From IMG/VR virus record IMGVR_UViG_3300030118_002591, positions 1 through 23,347 of that record: a stretch of DNA of 23,347 nucleotides, one strand, 5' to 3'. The notes beneath the pieces are model-generated. The model was given only the letters and a program-made list of their open reading frames with translations. It did no database searches and was not told the origin of the DNA. The stretch's first letter is position 1, and every line of letters begins with the position of its first letter. Positions 1,359-21,584 of this stretch are shown one piece after another. The DNA comes from a virus. The position numbers and the translations under genes were made by a program.

Positions 1359-1510
1359 TCGTTTACCTCTATTCCTACTCCTTCAACTTTTACAATAATA
1401 TCTTTTTTAGTGCATACTTTACAGTTACAAATAGCACAGTTATTATCGCAAATACAAGTCATTTCACTATGACATACACACCCACATTTTTCGCACCTTT
1501 CCTGTTCCAT
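1355..1510 (-). CDS. Cysteine-rich 51-residue protein, probable metal-binding
   Basis: Translated by hand from the ATG at 1510-1508. It has ten cysteines in 51 residues (C6, C9, C11, C13, C19, C21, C25, C28, C30, C33) plus H14, all in the first 33 residues, followed by a cysteine-free tail KKDIIVKVEGVGIEVNE. The CxxC and CxC pairs look like a knuckle for two or more zinc ions or another metal; there is no signal peptide, so disulfides are less likely. Its ATG overlaps the primase stop (TAATG) and GGAG lies about ten bases upstream; its stop overlaps the ATG of the next small gene. It sits inside the replication module. I cannot name a family, and function is unknown. Confidence 0.7.
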   Translation of the reverse strand: MEQERCEKCGCVCHSEMTCICDNNCAICNCKVCTKKDIIVKVEGVGIEVNE

Positions 1511-3024
1511 TAGAATTCTATCTCCTGTTCTTCATCTTGTATCTTAGGCTTTGTAAATTCCTCTTCTTGTCTCTTAAACTTAGCCATAGACCATAGATTA
1601 ACGTGTTTACCCTTAATCTTCTTGGTTAAATGTTCAGCACCAAACTCTTTTAAATGAGCAGTTACTTCATGTAACTTAAATTCTTTGAATCTATGTTTTT
1701 CTAAGAATTCCATAAAATCGTTTATTCTAAACATAGTTACGTTCTCTTGCGTAACTGCATGACCTCGTAACAAGTCTTCTATTATATCAGAAGAAGTGCT
1801 TCCTGTACAAAATCTTTCGCATAATTCTAGTAATCTTCCTCTATTAGAACTATCTGAATTTACCTCTACAACCTCCATTCTAACCATTAATTCGTTAATT
1901 GTTTCAAGCCAAAGTGGTTGAGCTACGATAGGCATGAGAGTATTCATGTTCTCGAATACCACTCTTTGAAAGTTTTTTTGATTAATAATCTCTAAACTAT
2001 CGATAGGTCCTATTCTCTGATCATTAACAGTAACGAAATAAGTAGGAGGATCTGTATTAATTTTAGTTATACCACTAATTGCTGGTAAATTTCCATTATC
2101 GCTAATACCAAACTTACAAGTTAAACAAACTGGTTTATTACAGAACGCATTAATTGGTTGTTCTGAACACATATAATTGTAATCTTTTTTCTCTAATGAT
2201 TTAATAATTGTTTGCACTTCTTTAGATTTTAAAGGAGGTTCCATGTAATTGTGATTGTATTCTTCTATCTTCTCTTCCCATTCGTCAGGGTGTGCTTTCT
2301 TTAAATATACTCCTATGTTATATAATGAATTGTTTCTTGTGCCTTGAGGAAATCCGTGTTGTAGTAAATATTTTAAACAAGGAGGTCCGTCAGGTAATAA
2401 TTTTTTATTTTCTTCCTTAAGTTGTGGAATTTTAATTTCGTCAACACTATCTATTTTTCTAATGTTAGCAAGTTTAATAAAAGCTTCAGGATCTGTTATA
2501 TGTTCTCCGTTATAAATAGCGTATCTAGTAGAACGCTTTCCACCAAAGTAAGGCATATTTATCCAGTTTCCTACATCTCCTCGATCTGTAACTAGCTTTA
2601 CTTGTTTAGGAAATATCTCAGCACTAGGCTTTCCAAGTGCTGAAGTTATCTGTCTTAGTTTATCCACTACTAATTTTGCAGATACTGCTTTATTAAAAAA
2701 TAAATACAGATGAATTCCACCAGATTTAGTTAAACAAGGTATGAAAGGGGATGTTCCTAGGCTCTTTGATAAAGTATCTACGTCTAAGTCGTATTCGTCA
2801 ATATCAATAGCTGCCCATAAAACTTTAGCATCATCACGAATAGGAACTACACCTAGGCCTTGCATGCCTAATAAATGTAGTTCCCATTGCTTCGTTGTTA
2901 GTTTTTCAGGTATTGTTCTAGCAGTACCAGATTGTTTTACTCCTGATTGATCTGAGTCAACATCATATCTACCATAAGCACGATCTAATCCACTAAATAG
3001 ACTATGAAAGTTTTCTGCAAGCAT
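1510..3024 (-). CDS. DNA primase of the archaeo-eukaryotic (AEP/TOTE-like) type with C-terminal cysteine cluster
   Basis: A 504-residue protein. The AEP catalytic core spans about residues 20-190: motif I is AAIDIDEYD (D74, D76), motif II is KSGGIHLYLFF (H105), and motif III lies in SAEIFPKQ, followed by the GNWINMPYFGG signature typical of the primases in TOTE-type systems and many phages. It should make primers, or short DNA, from nucleotides at the replication fork. Residues 213-305 contain GPPCLKYLL and then C286, C295, C300 and C303, a layout that recalls the zinc or Fe-S C-terminal domains of primases. The last 200 residues are unassigned. The ATG overlaps the stop of the SSB-like gene (TAATG) and no Shine-Dalgarno is visible, so translation by re-initiation is likely. 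No DnaG-type Toprim motifs are present. Confidence 0.85.
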   Translation of the reverse strand: MLAENFHSLFSGLDRAYGRYDVDSDQSGVKQSGTARTIPEKLTTKQWELHLLGMQGLGVVPIRDDAKVLWAAIDIDEYDLDVDTLSKSLGTSPFIPCLTKSGGIHLYLFFNKAVSAKLVVDKLRQITSALGKPSAEIFPKQVKLVTDRGDVGNWINMPYFGGKRSTRYAIYNGEHITDPEAFIKLANIRKIDSVDEIKIPQLKEENKKLLPDGPPCLKYLLQHGFPQGTRNNSLYNIGVYLKKAHPDEWEEKIEEYNHNYMEPPLKSKEVQTIIKSLEKKDYNYMCSEQPINAFCNKPVCLTCKFGISDNGNLPAISGITKINTDPPTYFVTVNDQRIGPIDSLEIINQKNFQRVVFENMNTLMPIVAQPLWLETINELMVRMEVVEVNSDSSNRGRLLELCERFCTGSTSSDIIEDLLRGHAVTQENVTMFRINDFMEFLEKHRFKEFKLHEVTAHLKEFGAEHLTKKIKGKHVNLWSMAKFKRQEEEFTKPKIQDEEQEIEF

Positions 3025-4764: not shown

Positions 4765-6240
4765 ATGACGCAAGTATCTTTTAGTGATGATGAATTTATA
4801 GATTATAAATATAAAACTAAACCATTTAAACATCAATGGGACGTGTTTAAAATGTCTCGTGATGAAGAATATTATGCCTTGTTTATGGAACAAGGAACTG
4901 GTAAATCTAAAGTAATAGTAGATACTATTACTCATTTAGCAAGAAAAGGTAGCATAGATAGTGCTATAATAGTAGCACCTAAAGGTGTTTATAGAAACTG
5001 GCTAAAATTAGAAATACCTATACATATGCCAGATGATGTCCTTGATTCTATTTACATGGAGATATGGAATCCTACTGAAACTAAGAAAAACATAGAAAGA
5101 TTAACTAAATTTATGAAAGAAAACCACGATGGTTTAAAAGTATTTATTATTAACATAGAAGCTTTTAGCACGTTAAAAGGATTACATTATACTCAAAGAT
5201 TTTTAAATGTTCATAAGTCTATGGTAGTTATAGATGAATCTTCTACTATTAAACATAAGACTGCTCGAAGAACTAAGAACTTATTAAAAATTTCTAATAT
5301 GGCAAAGTATCGTAGAATACTTACAGGAACACCAGTAACAGCAGGACCTGTAGATATATACACTCAAATGTCTTTTCTTTCAGATAATATTTTACAGTCT
5401 TCGTTTTATGGTTTTCGTAATCGATACTGCGTGCTTCGTAGAAGAACAATAAATATGAGAACATTTGATGAAATAGTAGATTATCAAAACTTAGATGAGT
5501 TGCAAGACGTAATTAAACCTTACTCTTATCGGGTAACTAAAGCTGAGTGTTTAGATTTACCAGATAAAATTTATATAAAAAGAGAAATAGAGATGACTTC
5601 AAAGCAAAAGAAAGTATATGACATACTAAGACGTAAAGCTTACATAGAGTTATCGGAAGAAAAATCTGTATCTGCTCCTCTAGTTATTACAAGATTACTA
5701 AGACTACAGCAGATTATGTGTGGCTTCGTAAAGTATGATGATGGTAAGTTAGAGGAAATAGATAAGGTAAACCCTAGAATAACTGAGTTAATACAAGTAT
5801 TAGAAGAAACAGAAGGTCAAGTTATAATCTGGTCTAACTATACTAGATCTATTCAAGACATAGAAAACGCTATAAAAAAGAATATGAAAGATAAAACTTG
5901 TGCTACATATTATGGAGATACTAAATCGGAAGATAGACAAGAAATAGTTTCACAGTTTCAAGCTGGTGAAATAGATTATTTTATAGGGCAACCTAGAACG
6001 GGTGGCTATGGTCTTACTTTAACTAATGCTAAAACTGTTATCTACTATGCTAATAGTTATGATTTAGAAGTAAGACTACAATCTGAAGATAGACCTCATA
6101 GAATTGGTCAAACTAATAAAGTTACTTATATAGATTTTGTAACGCCTAAAACTATTGATGAAAAAATATTTGAATCTCTTAGAAACAAAAAGTCTTTAGC
6201 AGATAGTATTACAGGAGATAATTGGAAAGAATGGATTTAA
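4765..6240 (+). CDS. SNF2-family superfamily 2 helicase/ATPase
   Basis: A 491-residue helicase and the only plus-strand gene. Motif I is MEQGTGKS (Walker A, K47), motif Ia is IVAPKGVYRNW, motif II is VVIDESS (D157, E158), motif III is ILTGTP (186-190), motif V is TGGYGLTLT, and motif VI is QSEDRPHRIGQ (439-449), which is the SNF2 form. The length is that of a bare two-lobe motor with no chromodomain or nuclease fused. It should couple ATP hydrolysis to movement on duplex DNA, in replication or recombination beside the primase. An N-terminal FKHQWDVFKM is the usual Q-like motif. The ribosome binding site is weak (AGAAAG). Its stop overlaps the stop of the convergent gene in the four bases TTAA. 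Confidence 0.92.
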   Translation: MTQVSFSDDEFIDYKYKTKPFKHQWDVFKMSRDEEYYALFMEQGTGKSKVIVDTITHLARKGSIDSAIIVAPKGVYRNWLKLEIPIHMPDDVLDSIYMEIWNPTETKKNIERLTKFMKENHDGLKVFIINIEAFSTLKGLHYTQRFLNVHKSMVVIDESSTIKHKTARRTKNLLKISNMAKYRRILTGTPVTAGPVDIYTQMSFLSDNILQSSFYGFRNRYCVLRRRTINMRTFDEIVDYQNLDELQDVIKPYSYRVTKAECLDLPDKIYIKREIEMTSKQKKVYDILRRKAYIELSEEKSVSAPLVITRLLRLQQIMCGFVKYDDGKLEEIDKVNPRITELIQVLEETEGQVIIWSNYTRSIQDIENAIKKNMKDKTCATYYGDTKSEDRQEIVSQFQAGEIDYFIGQPRTGGYGLTLTNAKTVIYYANSYDLEVRLQSEDRPHRIGQTNKVTYIDFVTPKTIDEKIFESLRNKKSLADSITGDNWKEWI

Positions 6241-15113: not shown

Positions 15114-16214
15114 CTACCTCAGCTTTTTAAAATCTACATCTATTTTATTATAATCTACAGCTAAGAAACCATTAACGTTAATAGAAGCTTCTGGCACTTC
15201 TTGTGCTATTACACCTTGATATCTATCAGGGTTATTAATATATTTAAATTCATAAATATTTATTCCTAATGGAGATTTACCTACTAATTCAATATCTTCT
15301 TTTAAACGAGAATCACTCATCATATAAGCCGATCCAATAGCCCCTGCTATTTGACCGAAAGGAGAAGTCCCTCCTATAACTTGACCTACTGTACCTGAAC
15401 GCTCTTCGCCGTAAGAACGTATAGGAGCACCTGTAAGAATACTTGATAAGAATCCTAATTGTCCTCTTTCAAATCCTTGTTGTTCTACAAAGTCACGATA
15501 ATCTTCTAATAACTGTTGTTGTCTTACTGCTTGTTGTAGCCCACCAAATTGAGTGGCAGCGGCCGCTTCTCTTAATCCTGTCTCCCCTAACTGTGCTTGT
15601 AAACCAGGAACAGCTTGAGCTGCAGTCAATTGCCCTTGAGCTGCAACAGCACGATCAGTAGCAAATCTATTTGCTGCATCTTGAAAAGCTTGTGCTTGTA
15701 ATTGAGCTGTTAAATCTCCTGCTCTTTTTGCAGTTTCAGCTTGAAGAGTAGCTTCTTGTATTCCTTGTCTTGCTCCACCAAACGCACCTCTTGAAACAGC
15801 TTGTGCTCTAGCTGTTTGTTGTGCTCTAGCAGATTCTTCTTGTAAATTTCTTATTGCGTTATTAGCAACTGTATCTATAAAAGGATTCATATACTGATTC
15901 GCAATATCAGTAGTAAATTGAGTTCCTGCTATATTAGCTGCCGCTCTAACTCTATTTTGAGCTTCTGGTATTACACCAGATTGACCGAACTGTCCTAAAT
16001 TAGTTGCAGCTTGAGTAATTGCAGCATTTTGAAGAGCAGTTAAATCTGCTATACGTTCACCTTCAAACGCTTGAAAAGGTTGTTGACTTGCTGCATTAGC
16101 TCTTGCAAATACATTTTCTTGTAAATCTTTAAAATATTGTGGGATTTCATATTGTACTGTACCTTGACTAGGTGCTTGTACTACTGTAGATGTAGGTCTA
16201 AATAAGCTTCCCAT
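15114..16214 (-). CDS. Ala/Gln-rich ejection or tail-needle protein with C-terminal S74-type intramolecular chaperone
   Basis: 366 residues. Residues 30-260 are Ala/Gln-rich and almost wholly helical, with the marine-phage motif SRGAFGGARQGIQEA (141-155), as in DNA-injection-like proteins. Residues 299-366 begin MSDSRLKEDIE, with the S-D-x-R-x-K signature of the chaperone of endosialidase (peptidase S74) domain, and continue YEFKYINNPDRYQGVIAQEV. That domain trimerises fibre and spike proteins and often cuts itself off at the Ser. The gene sits in the gp14 position of a T7-like order. The pairing with a helical, non-fibre body is unusual. Start ATG; the stop of GNAT overlaps it. Confidence 0.75.
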   Translation of the reverse strand: MGSLFRPTSTVVQAPSQGTVQYEIPQYFKDLQENVFARANAASQQPFQAFEGERIADLTALQNAAITQAATNLGQFGQSGVIPEAQNRVRAAANIAGTQFTTDIANQYMNPFIDTVANNAIRNLQEESARAQQTARAQAVSRGAFGGARQGIQEATLQAETAKRAGDLTAQLQAQAFQDAANRFATDRAVAAQGQLTAAQAVPGLQAQLGETGLREAAAATQFGGLQQAVRQQQLLEDYRDFVEQQGFERGQLGFLSSILTGAPIRSYGEERSGTVGQVIGGTSPFGQIAGAIGSAYMMSDSRLKEDIELVGKSPLGINIYEFKYINNPDRYQGVIAQEVPEASINVNGFLAVDYNKIDVDFKKLR

Positions 16215-16657
16215 TATAAATTATCTCCATATGTGCCACCAAGGTATTCAAAGTTTTGTCTTATTAACCATTGATGTTTTCTATCAATATCATGTCCTTG
16301 CGTCATTTCAAGTATCAAAGGCATTTTGTTTATTTTAACGTATTCTTTAACATATTCTAGCAATTTTTTTGCTATTCTACTATTTCTTTTTTTACTATCT
16401 ACATAGAGCCAATTAACTCTAAAAAACTTCTTATCTGTATACCAAGTATCTTCATCAACTACTGATATAGTTCCTACGATTTTATTATCTTTTTCAGCTA
16501 CTATTACAAAATTATTATAGATTATATCGTAAATATAAGAATCTCCTTTCCTAGTATTAGGTTTTCCTAATCTTAGTGGCGATTCATCAAGCCAGTTTAG
16601 TAGTAAATTTCTAATAGGCTTTACGTCTTCTAAAGTAGCTTTCCTATAATTAACCAA
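16214..16657 (-). CDS. GNAT-family N-acetyltransferase-like protein (T7 gp13-position)
   Basis: 147 residues with the GNAT plan: YRKATLEDVKPIRNLLL at the start, a strand FVIVAEKDNKIVGTISVVDE (51-70), the core FRVNWLYVDSKKRNSRIAKKLLEYV (79-103, shown here only as its ends matter) and a final NFEYLGGTYG. The acetyl-CoA loop reads RNSRIA, so the usual third-position Gly of Q/RxxGxG/A is Arg, and catalysis may be weak or lost. T7 gp13, which sits between gp12 and gp14, also belongs to this fold, and this gene lies between the nozzle and the ejection genes. It starts with TTG at 16657, with AAAGGG four bases before; no earlier ATG fits. Confidence 0.8.
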   Translation of the reverse strand: MVNYRKATLEDVKPIRNLLLNWLDESPLRLGKPNTRKGDSYIYDIIYNNFVIVAEKDNKIVGTISVVDEDTWYTDKKFFRVNWLYVDSKKRNSRIAKKLLEYVKEYVKINKMPLILEMTQGHDIDRKHQWLIRQNFEYLGGTYGDNL

Positions 16658-18760: not shown

Positions 18761-19047
18761 TAGCCTTTTTTTAATTTTAACAAGTTACTAATATTATTAG
18801 CTTTAACCATCTCATTTCTAAAACTTTCAATTGCAGCACCAGCTTGACTACTTTGTCTAGAATTTTCTATTAATAACATAGGAAGCATAGCAATAGCACA
18901 GCCATACTCGTCAACTTCTTCACCAGTTTGAGGGTGAGTGCCTCTTATTTGAGTAAACCAAGCACAGTCAAATTTTTTACAAGGAGTAAAATTATTGAGA
19001 GGACAATTATCTTTAATTTCAATTTTCAATTTAGTCTTTTGCTGCAA
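18760..19047 (-). CDS. Small four-cysteine conserved phage protein
   Basis: 95 residues if started at the TTG at 19047; a second TTG at 19029, just after the stop of the collar gene, would give 89, and neither has a clear ribosome binding site. The fixed part is DNCPLNNFTPCKKFDCAWF, then IRGTHPQTGEEVDEYGCAIAMLPMLLIE. The cysteines C15, C23, C28 and C50 are spaced C-x7-C-x4-C-x21-C and could bind zinc or an Fe-S cluster. I recall this pattern from marine podoviruses at the same position, before the nozzle gene, without known function. It overlaps the collar gene by 17 bases if the first start is used. Confidence 0.7.
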   Translation of the reverse strand: MQQKTKLKIEIKDNCPLNNFTPCKKFDCAWFTQIRGTHPQTGEEVDEYGCAIAMLPMLLIENSRQSSQAGAAIESFRNEMVKANNISNLLKLKKG

Positions 19048-20032
19048 TAATTAAATCTACATATTGCACATCTAAATTTAAGTTAGTAGAAAAACTATGA
19101 GTATGTGAATCACCAGCTAATGAACCAGCAGTGTGAGTATGGCCACCACCTCCTCCTTGATAATCAGTATAAAATCTTTTAGCACCACTTGAGTTACCAG
19201 TATTTCTAGTACCTGCACTAACGCTATCACCAGTACCAAATTCAACGTGACCACCTTCTAAGTGTCTATGTGAAGGTATTTCACTTAAAGTTAGAGTATG
19301 AGATCCTGTTGAACCTGAAATAGTAACTGCACTTCCGCCAGTAGTTCCACTAACAGCGTTATTAGTATTAAATGCTGCAGCGAAAGTATTGCTTCCACCT
19401 GAACTTACTGAACCTGTTACAACACGTAAAGCTTTATTATTATGTGTAGTTTGTTTAGTCCAGCCAGTAGGTGCTGCAGATTGTTGAAATAACATTTTAG
19501 TTGAACTAGGAAAAGCTTCTATTCCTGTTAAACCTGAACCATCACCAGTTACTGTAGTTGCGTTTAATACTGCTACATTAACAGTTCCTAAAGATTTAGT
19601 GCCATCTGCAAAAAGATCTACCATATCATCTCCGTCTTTAACGTAAGCAACAGTATGGGTTCCTTGAGTAATAGCTATGCCATTAGCTGCATGGCCAGTA
19701 GGTGCTACATGTAAAGTATAAGAACCTGTAGTATTATTATGAAAAATATATTCTTTCTCTACTGCTGGTAAAAAAACGTAAATATTACCAGATAGTGTTC
19801 CTGTAAATTCAATTACTTTATTAGCGGCTTCATTAGTAGTTTCTACATCTGGATCTCTATTAGAAGACGTTAAAGTAACGTTAGCACTTCCTGCTACAGA
19901 TTTAGCTAGATAGCCTCCTACGGCAGCGTCTATAACTTGTAAATTTTCATTTGTATTGTTACCCCATACACCAGCGTTTGCGCCAGCTTCCATTAATTCT
20001 AATTTTAATCTAGTTGAATAAGTTGATGCCAT
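19031..20032 (-). CDS. Tail-collar-type fibre protein with HxH motifs
   Basis: 333 residues. The N-terminus (STRLKLELMEAGANAGVWGN, then ENLQVIDAAVGGYLAKSVAG) is an attachment part common to marine phage fibres. The collar-like domain begins near 176 with FPSSTKMLFQQSAAPTGWTK and RVVTG. Three His-x-His pairs follow: SHRH (H255, H257), GHTH (H298, H300) and SHTH (H310, H312), before the terminal NLNLDVQYVDLIIAAKD. In T4 gp12 and gp37, HxH motifs from a trimer bind iron or zinc in the tip, and the same is likely here. It would serve in host binding at the tail end. It starts two bases after the cupredoxin-bearing fibre gene ends. Confidence 0.8.
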   Translation of the reverse strand: MASTYSTRLKLELMEAGANAGVWGNNTNENLQVIDAAVGGYLAKSVAGSANVTLTSSNRDPDVETTNEAANKVIEFTGTLSGNIYVFLPAVEKEYIFHNNTTGSYTLHVAPTGHAANGIAITQGTHTVAYVKDGDDMVDLFADGTKSLGTVNVAVLNATTVTGDGSGLTGIEAFPSSTKMLFQQSAAPTGWTKQTTHNNKALRVVTGSVSSGGSNTFAAAFNTNNAVSGTTGGSAVTISGSTGSHTLTLSEIPSHRHLEGGHVEFGTGDSVSAGTRNTGNSSGAKRFYTDYQGGGGGHTHTAGSLAGDSHTHSFSTNLNLDVQYVDLIIAAKD

Positions 20033-20033
20033 T

Positions 20034-21296
20034 TTATGCCGCTATCTCCGTCCATGTGTTTGTACTCGAAGTATCTACTTCAGTCCACGAATTACTTGCA
20101 CCTGGTATAGGTTGCCAGAAATTAGGTGAACCAGAACTTATATTAGCAGAAATTCCAGAAATTGAAACAATTTGTTGCCCTACTATAGATACTGTTCCTA
20201 CTGATGTAGTCGCAGATAATCCTGTTACTGAAAATCCTTGATTATTCTTTACAACTACACTATTTAAAGTAGTCGTTAATCCTTGACCAGTAACAGCAAA
20301 TGAAACATTAGATAATTGGCTAACGCTTCCTAATGAAACAGTTAATTGTTGTCCTGTAACATCTGAATCAGTTACGAGCTGAACTGTAACGCTTCCTAAA
20401 TTTGTAGTAGCAGATTGCCCTTGATAATTATTATTAGTAGGAGTATTAGCTTGACCTCCCATAGCAGAGTGATATTGACAGTAATAATATAGAGTAGGAG
20501 CAGAAGCGGCAACAGTTATAGTTGTTTTATAAGCACTATCATCTTTTACAACCCCTGTAGTGTATTCACTACCTCCACTATGAGTTCCACCACTAGTAGT
20601 AGAAAATCTAACAGGATGCCCTGTAGCGGCCGACCAATCGAATATGTAAGTGTTACCTTCTTCTAGTTCAAGAGTAGGTTGTTGTACTCCGTCAATAACG
20701 TATTTATTACCTGATCCAGTAGATACAACAGTTACAGTAAATGTTTGAGTTATTCCTTTAGGAACGACTAAAGCTGAACCGCTCGTAGTTTCATTTCCTT
20801 GAGAAACTGTAGCTTCTTGTCCATTTGCAGCCACATCACCTGGTATCTGAACAGCTACACTTCCTAGACTTGTAGTTCCTTGAACTCCTGTTTCTATAAC
20901 TACTGCAGATCCTACGACAACTTCATCAGATAAAGTTGAAGTTAGTTCTTGACCTGATTGAGCAATTGCTATATTAATAGCTACTGATTCATCTCCTAAC
21001 GTTGAAGTTAAACCAAATCCTGTTTCACTTATAACAGCTTGCCCTGCTACTACAACATCGTTTACAGATCCAGTAATTGCTTGCCCTGAAGCTACAATCT
21101 CTCCTTGAGCTGATACAGTTACACTATTTAATGTAGTAGTAAGAGCTTGGCCAGTAATCGCAACACCAGTAGTTACGTCAACTGATACGCTATTTAATGT
21201 AGTAGTAAGAGCTTGACCAGTAACAGCGAATGCTATACTAGTTCCACCTTCCGCAGAGAAAGGGGCTTCAGCGAATGATAATCTCGCAAAATTCAT
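20034..21296 (-). CDS. Tail fibre with 22-residue repeats and an embedded cupredoxin-like domain
   Basis: 420 residues. Residues 27-180 and 293-391 are tandem units of exactly 22 residues with the pattern G-Q-x-L-T-T-T-L-x-S-V-x-V (repeat glycines at 27, 49, 71, 93, 115, 137, 159, then 293, 315, 337, 359, 381). Between them residues 182-282 form a cupredoxin-like fold: TFTVTVVS, then GNTYIFDWS, GHPVRFST (H227) and LYYYCQYHSAMGG (C273, H276, M279). His, Cys, His and Met are the type 1 copper ligands. The C-terminus has tandem SNSWTEVDTS and TNTWTEIAA. The N-terminal MNFARLSFAE is a short fibre-attachment part. It should be a virion fibre; whether metal is bound is untested. Start ATG; the fibre chaperone lies just upstream. 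Confidence 0.8.
   Translation of the reverse strand: MNFARLSFAEAPFSAEGGTSIAFAVTGQALTTTLNSVSVDVTTGVAITGQALTTTLNSVTVSAQGEIVASGQAITGSVNDVVVAGQAVISETGFGLTSTLGDESVAINIAIAQSGQELTSTLSDEVVVGSAVVIETGVQGTTSLGSVAVQIPGDVAANGQEATVSQGNETTSGSALVVPKGITQTFTVTVVSTGSGNKYVIDGVQQPTLELEEGNTYIFDWSAATGHPVRFSTTSGGTHSGGSEYTTGVVKDDSAYKTTITVAASAPTLYYYCQYHSAMGGQANTPTNNNYQGQSATTNLGSVTVQLVTDSDVTGQQLTVSLGSVSQLSNVSFAVTGQGLTTTLNSVVVKNNQGFSVTGLSATTSVGTVSIVGQQIVSISGISANISSGSPNFWQPIPGASNSWTEVDTSSTNTWTEIAA
20124..20420 (-). repeat. Tandem 66-base coding repeats, second block (four to five units)
   Basis: Codes for the repeats with glycines at residues 293, 315, 337, 359 and a cut unit at 381 of the fibre. The spacing is exactly 22 codons. 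The units differ more at DNA level than the two nearest the N-terminus. Confidence 0.75.
20757..21218 (-). repeat. Tandem 66-base coding repeats, first block (seven units)
   Basis: Codes for the repeats with glycines at residues 27-159 of the fibre. The first two units are almost identical in DNA: the segments starting at 21124 and 21190 match over about 33 of 34 bases at an offset of exactly 66, so a recent unit duplication is likely. Confidence 0.8.
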
Positions 21297-21299
21297 TTA

Positions 21300-21584
21300 T
21301 TACGACCCTGGTTTAGTCGGCCAAATTACTGAGTTTACTTTTTCTACTGTATCTAATCCTGTAGTGAGATCTCTTAAATCTTGTCTATATTTTTTCTGTG
21401 CGTCTGTCATGGTGTTGTCAGAGGCACCCCACCAATCTGTTTCTTTTAATAACATATTTCTTTTTTCTCTCAGCTGTTCCATTTTAATATTAAACTCAGT
21501 TGGTGCGTTTGCTTGGTCATTATTATATTGAGCTATATCTTCTGCTGTAGCATCTACTAAAATTCCATTTAAATATTTTTTCAT
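21300..21584 (-). CDS. Tail-fibre assembly chaperone-like protein (Phage_tail_APC type)
   Basis: 94 residues. After a short lead (YLNGILVDATAEDIAQYN) comes the family block LREKRNMLLKETDWWGASD (38-56), then TMTDAQKKYRQDLRDLTTGL and the end IWPTKPG. The TDW, YRQ-LRDL and WPTKP elements are those of the phage tail assembly chaperone-like domain (Pfam Phage_tail_APC), usually found as a small protein or as a C-terminal piece beside fibre genes. It sits between two fibre genes in the same transcript, which fits a helper in fibre folding; a virion component is the alternative. Confidence 0.78.
   Translation of the reverse strand: MKKYLNGILVDATAEDIAQYNNDQANAPTEFNIKMEQLREKRNMLLKETDWWGASDNTMTDAQKKYRQDLRDLTTGLDTVEKVNSVIWPTKPGS

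Follow-up and report, generated by a model that had tools for sequence, protein, structure and literature searches.

A tail-fibre-like protein encoded by the virus analysed here carries, set between β-repeats, a cupredoxin-like domain with the complete His-Cys-His-Met ligand set of a type 1 copper site. The fold of this domain and its capacity to bind copper are strongly predicted, on the basis of a structural model and of the conservation of the ligands among its relatives. As to function, we favour the reading, to which as a whole we give a probability of roughly 0.55, that the domain is a mobile cupredoxin module in which the copper site would clamp a β-sandwich with variable, probably host-contacting loops. 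Both the fold and the site are of known kinds, and what is new is their location on virion fibres.

The fibre gene and its neighbourhood

The window, meaning the whole stretch of DNA that was analysed, comprises the 23,347 bases of an IMG/VR virus record. The features relevant to the domain are all encoded on the minus strand:

21300..21584 (-), tail fibre assembly protein, immediately before the fibre ORF in transcription order (phrog_4912, E = 9.7e-14)
20034..21296 (-), tail-fibre-like ORF of 420 residues carrying the cupredoxin-like domain (PHROG matches over the domain; fibre-gene neighbours)
20751..21296 (-), N-terminal repeat region, residues 1-182, with TGQALTTTLNSVTV-type β-repeats (predicted all-β, low confidence)
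20439..20750 (-), cupredoxin-like domain, residues about 183-286 (alignments, model, fold search and profile comparison)
20508..20642 (-), middle of the domain (residues 219-263), where identity with the fibre of locus L227 falls to 41% (surrounding segments 88-96%)
20616..20618 (-), codon of His227, predicted copper ligand 1, before strand 4, in GHPVRF (translation and model)
20478..20480 (-), codon of Cys273, predicted copper ligand 2 and only Cys of the fibre, in YYYCQYHSAMGG (translation)
20469..20471 (-), codon of His276, predicted copper ligand 3, in YYYCQYHSAMGG (translation)
20460..20462 (-), codon of Met279, predicted axial copper ligand 4 and only non-initiator Met, in YYYCQYHSAMGG (translation)
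20037..20438 (-), C-terminal repeat region, residues 287-420, with TGQALTTTLNSVTV-type repeats as at the N-terminus (predicted all-β, low confidence)
19031..20032 (-), next tail-fibre-like protein, 333 residues, downstream of the fibre ORF (phrog_12796 tail fibre, E = 1.8e-7)

The 420-residue ORF lies in a minus-strand block of fibre-like genes, which is followed, beyond the 333-residue protein, by genes for virion structural and DNA ejection proteins. PHROG matches over the domain are to tail fibre and virion structural proteins and place the ORF in a tail fibre family, and cultured homologues of the domain are annotated as tail fibres. The model of the full-length fibre has a pLDDT of 41 and supports nothing beyond a mostly β structure. 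At the nucleotide level similarity to cultured phages is practically nil, consisting only of a 71-base lysozyme match to the SAR11 phages HTVC105P and HTVC121P, and the whole 420-residue fibre is also present in six IMG/VR loci (L001, L002, L003, L004, L007 and L008). Elsewhere in the window, a TOTE-type archaeo-eukaryotic primase with PriCT_1 is encoded at 1510..3024 (-), an SNF2-family helicase is found on the opposite strand at 4765..6240 (+), and a GNAT acetyltransferase (16214..16657, -) is located inside the structural gene block.

Ligand residues and spacing

Translation of the ORF places H227 in GHPVRF and C273, H276 and M279 in the second motif, exactly as numbered in the preliminary description of this DNA; the span given there, 20454-20753 (-), translates as residues 182-281, and the end of the domain extends to about residue 286. 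The protein contains one Cys (273), three His (227, 239 and 276) and one non-initiator Met (279), and the proposed site uses up its sole Cys, its sole internal Met and two thirds of its His. Since Cys273 is the single Cys of the fibre, an intrachain disulfide at this position is impossible. Two further candidates were discarded, namely an iron-binding fibre of the HxH type, as the His residues at 227, 239 and 276 form no HxH motif, and a role of H239 as additional ligand, this residue being merely 55-70% conserved.

The two residues between the last His and the Met had been regarded as unusually few. However, C-x2-H-x2-M is a known type 1 spacing, since the copper of amicyanin is bound by His53, Cys92, His95 and Met98 (PMC12723479), and this spacing (2,2) occurs in 128 of 129 copies of the domain, with 2,3 in the remaining one. 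The only spacing variant seen is a divergent phage copy at residues 195-303 of ORF 107 (+) in locus L178, which reads C-x2-H-x3-M (ACYVHGIGMGG). The position after the first His is occupied by Pro in nearly all copies of the fibre-domain family and mostly by Asp in a distant gammaproteobacterial clade, whereas His-Asn is invariant among the cupredoxins compared, so that this feature of PF00127 is absent from the fibre domain. In amicyanin, the Asn at this position tunes the redox potential (PMC12723479), and the predicted site of the fibre may therefore have unusual properties.

Conservation of the ligands

All four ligands are present in each of the 129 distinct copies found first, and in 157 of 158 distinct copies, from ocean viruses and from envelope proteins of bacteria or archaea, once those of SAR86 are added from a whole-profile search. 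The sole exception reads N-S-A-M, the first three ligands having been lost together, and belongs to a giant SAR86 adhesin of 3,684 residues (L193, G034:C2) which carries a second, intact copy of the domain. An alignment of 44 diverse rows has no invariant columns other than H, Y, C, H, M and G, which comprise the four ligands, a Tyr and a Gly. When the copies are clustered at 60-90% identity, conservation in the ligand columns is 97-100%. Even distant envelope proteins of Gammaproteobacteria, detected with E-values of 1e-10 to 1e-17, retain H...C-x2-H-x2-M-G, with Asp instead of Pro after the first His. As far as sequences can tell, such near-invariance, which extends to these distant copies, is the pattern of a working site and not of an inherited ornament.

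For most copies, recruitment through seed peptides that cover the ligands can be excluded as a source of bias, because 102 of the 129 were recruited only through peptides overlapping no ligand, and whole-profile searches supplied the copies of SAR86 and of Gammaproteobacteria. A chance motif is likewise ruled out, given that C-x2-H-x2-M is expected about 3e-5 times per protein at the composition of the fibre and that the ligands are nearly invariant in its relatives.

Fold and homology to cupredoxins

The structure prediction and fold search proposed in the preliminary description gave a confident model of eight strands and best PDB matches that are mostly cupredoxins, at modest TM-scores. The AlphaFold2 model of the domain, built from the 44-row alignment, has a pLDDT of 95.5 and a pTM of 0.88; in it, the first His is located just before strand 4, the Cys ends the strand at 91-95, and the second His and the Met lie in the loop preceding the strand at 102-106. 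As modelled, this layout is the cupredoxin arrangement, in which the last three ligands are gathered at the loop that joins the final two strands. When the model is compared with the PDB by Foldseek, copper nitrite reductase, rusticyanin and multicopper oxidases rank first, and a pseudoazurin with an engineered amicyanin loop is found at rank 13, along with a few non-cupredoxins (SO1698 peptidase, a Fab and semaphorin). The domain is predicted to be a β-sandwich, of eight strands in the model, whose nearest solved folds are cupredoxins, with the reservation that these matches have a TM of about 0.46-0.61 and an rmsd near 6 Å, none of them reaching E <= 0.001. Among viral models, the same domain is found in many cyanophage fibres (TM 0.7-0.9); β-sandwich proteins of pithoviruses and marseilleviruses (A0A481Z6J5, A0A481Z7Q7 and A0A481YVH3) are more distant matches.

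Profile comparison also points to cupredoxins. Alignment of the domain with Copper-bind cupredoxins by hhalign yields a probability of 94.5% (E 7.8e-8), compared with 0.5% for a cadherin-like β-sandwich used as control, and a profile search of PDB sequences returns plastocyanin first (E 0.0084), aligned at the Cys/His/Met segment. The Pfam model PF00127 (Copper-bind) scores 16.5 bits, below its gathering score of 21.2, and the domain is for this reason termed cupredoxin-like and not a member of PF00127. Taken with the strict conservation of the ligands, the model and the profile comparison give good support to the original suggestion that the domain is cupredoxin-like and has all the ligands of a type 1 site.

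Distribution in phages and cells

The suggestion that similar segments are widespread in structural proteins of marine phages is well supported too: pelagiphages, cyanophages and methylophages have homologues in their fibres, and hundreds of IMG/VR contigs encode them. Protein comparisons place the domain in the cultured pelagiphages HTVC028P, Baldr and Hodr, in cyanophages (the S-TIM5 group and S-B68), in Methylophilales phages (Melnitz) and in a Mediterranean fosmid phage, where its proteins mostly bear the annotation of tail fibre or virion structural protein; the cyanophages P-SSM2, P-TIM68 and S-RIM14 have it as well. Of two IMG/VR scans, one gave 162 relative-encoding stretches and the other at least 459. 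Because the domain is found at the N-terminus (28), internally (65) or at the C-terminus (98) of the proteins collected, for 191 copies in all, it is a mobile module. Its spread with the ligands retained suggests that a copper site is present in many marine viruses on the structure that attaches to the host.

Cellular relatives were sought by scanning GTDB genome contigs and by whole-genome searches. They comprise proteins with an obvious lipobox (e.g. LTACGGGGG) and giant adhesins of SAR86 and related bacteria, as well as copies in Marine Group II archaea, and several of them are chromosomal, since they lie on contigs of 0.4-1.2 Mb. The domain is present in 31 of 61 genomes of the order of the SAR86 genome, in 8 of 60 of the order of the Marine Group II genome and in 17 of 185 genomes sampled from the class of the SAR92 genome. 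In a tree of 80 copies and 115 columns, in which many forks are unresolved, nearly all phage copies fall among marine bacterial ones and the gammaproteobacterial clade stands far outside. The simpler reading of this tree is that phages may have captured the domain from bacteria.

Some copies deserve separate mention. Three Pelagibacteraceae (SAR11) contigs of 71-118 kb (L089, L090 and L091) contain a phage-type tail fibre bearing the domain, and are possible prophages or co-sequenced phage. In the Marine Group II order, ORFs of about 118 residues consisting of little but the domain are found at the very start of contigs (G104:C5:55-348, G124:C16:44-337 and G130:C31:35-328) and are perhaps viral or repeat-bounded elements. 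Finally, a gammaproteobacterial family (L229-L238) of secreted proteins or lipoproteins of about 460-550 residues has a distant copy with HD in place of HP, together with a conserved C-terminal region ending in ...RALMIAGVR/N.

A variable middle beside a constant ligand loop

The fibre of locus L227 (IMGVR_UViG_3300030389_000763) is 88-89% identical to the 420-residue fibre on both flanks of the domain. Within the domain, identity is 91% and 96% at the two ends, the latter value being that of the ligand loop, and falls to 41% in the middle. Loss of the domain in L227 is therefore a false impression, as the domain is there with a divergent middle, which may have been replaced or diversified through recombination or positive selection while the ligand loop was left unchanged. 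A variable middle, a constant metal loop and the fibre context together suggest a copper-clamped scaffold presenting variable, host-contacting loops.

Proposed role and alternatives

According to this proposal, residues 183-286 or so would constitute an independently folding cupredoxin module set into a β-repeat tail fibre, and its mononuclear type 1 copper site, built by His227, Cys273, His276 and Met279 on a ligand loop of amicyanin length, would sit at an end of the β-sandwich. Since fibres fold in the cytoplasm, the copper may be taken up there as Cu(I) or be acquired after lysis. Once bound, it would tie the loop of the first His to the Cys-His-Met loop, thereby stiffening and stabilising an exposed module whose variable middle loops probably contribute to the binding of the fibre to the host surface. 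The two functional components of this proposal are each held more tentatively than the fold, at somewhat short of even odds: that the metal is used structurally instead of for electron transfer, and that the domain serves adhesion, for which we rely mainly on the gene context and the one variable pair.

Free copper is minimal in the cytoplasm where fibres are made, and the predicted site may for this reason be empty in virions. This fits an alternative in which the domain is a plain Ig-like β-sandwich decoration that has inherited its Cys/His/Met pattern and binds no metal in virions; such a domain would spread as other fibre modules do, and antibody V-domains appear among the weak sequence matches, albeit only around YYC, which led to their rejection as an assignment. 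However, the four ligands rank with the best-conserved residues of the domain while other positions drift, distant cellular copies retain them, and the sole copy to lose ligands lost three at once, all of which makes a merely decorative domain unlikely. A site filled structurally by another soft metal (Zn, Fe(II) or Co) has a still slimmer chance. The identity of the metal cannot be read from a sequence, and cupredoxin sites can take other metals in vitro, but the combination of His2-Cys-Met with a cupredoxin fold is that of type 1 copper sites, and Met is seldom used in structural zinc sites.

Other alternatives give the copper an active part. The site might be a functional fibre tip that docks on copper-binding or copper-uptake proteins of the host surface or delivers copper, as a counterpart of the iron-based 'Ferrojan/Trojan horse'. 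Metal in fibres has a precedent in the HxH iron sites of T4 gp37 and those predicted for the Alteromonas phage R22Y (PMC11705849), and the ligand loop is the most constant part of the domain even where the middle changes, as in L227. On the other hand, many fibres have the domain in an internal or N-terminal position and not just at the tip, the 420-residue fibre has no HxH motif, and no host copper receptor has been identified, so we consider this role improbable. Even less probable is a redox role, in which the site would trade electrons with carriers of the host envelope or sense the redox state and thereby set off a change in the fibre. The same ligand set does serve electron transfer in amicyanin (PMC12723479), plastocyanin and rusticyanin, and cyanophages carry the plastocyanin gene petE as a separate gene (PMC2984593). 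Nevertheless, the structural clamp in an adhesion module is favoured over redox sensing because the fibre, with its single Cys, has no second redox centre and no partner gene is apparent within the 23,347-base window; moreover, the envelope relatives are lipoproteins and adhesins in which the domain is joined to cadherin-like or other non-redox regions.

Comparison with known systems

The domain resembles amicyanin, plastocyanin and pseudoazurin (PF00127) in the order of its ligands, His...Cys-x2-His-x2-Met, with the spacing of amicyanin (PMC12723479), in their placement in the loop between the last two strands and in detectable profile homology. It differs from them in its score, which is under the gathering threshold, in having Pro for Asn after the first His, and in its setting: those proteins are free electron carriers of the periplasm or thylakoid, amicyanin being the periplasmic carrier for methylamine dehydrogenase, whereas this domain is a module of virion fibres and lipoproteins, here embedded in a tail fibre among virion genes. 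The best solved fold matches, rusticyanin (1rcy) and the three-domain copper nitrite reductase of Hyphomicrobium (2dv6), align with a TM of 0.55-0.61 and low identity, and the fibre domain is without a catalytic partner domain.

Among phage proteins, the PetE plastocyanin of cyanophages is likewise a copper protein encoded by marine phages, as an auxiliary metabolic gene (PMC2984593), but it is a stand-alone soluble photosynthetic carrier acting in the infected cell, in contrast to a domain that is part of a structural fibre. The fibres of T4 (gp37) and R22Y share metal coordination by a tail fibre, with a proposed role in marine metal exchange (PMC11705849), the copper site of the present domain being a predicted one; in those fibres, HxH motifs coordinate octahedral iron in an intertwined trimer, whereas here there is one His-Cys-His-Met site per sandwich. 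The fibre domains of S-TIM5, P-SSM2, P-TIM68, S-RIM14, HTVC028P and Baldr are homologous and direct members of the same family, although they are set in other fibre architectures and are annotated, in the records seen, as tail fibre or virion structural protein only, with no mention of copper.

Implications

A search of the open-licence literature found no paper joining cupredoxins with phage tail fibres or virions, an absence there that is not proof; on plastocyanin-like structural proteins of phages it yielded only a paper on a plant phytocyanin, and on cupredoxins of cyanophages only the Borg paper. The phage cupredoxin that is known is PetE, a soluble plastocyanin (PMC2984593). In its farthest-reaching and unlikely form, the finding would mean that the adhesion fibres of virions from several marine phage groups bear functional type 1 copper sites, in a module shared with host envelope lipoproteins, and that copper takes a direct part in infection, either through docking on copper-handling host proteins or through redox triggering; the copper strongly bound to virions would then constitute a dissolved pool in the sea. 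Whether copper is bound is directly testable on the 100-residue domain and on the cultured phages HTVC028P, Baldr, S-TIM5 and Melnitz. If it is, a widespread class of marine phage fibres would be cuproproteins, with the first type 1 copper site in a virion to our knowledge, a copper counterpart would be added to the idea of iron in fibres, and phage fibres would be linked with envelope proteins of SAR86 and other organisms through a shared module.
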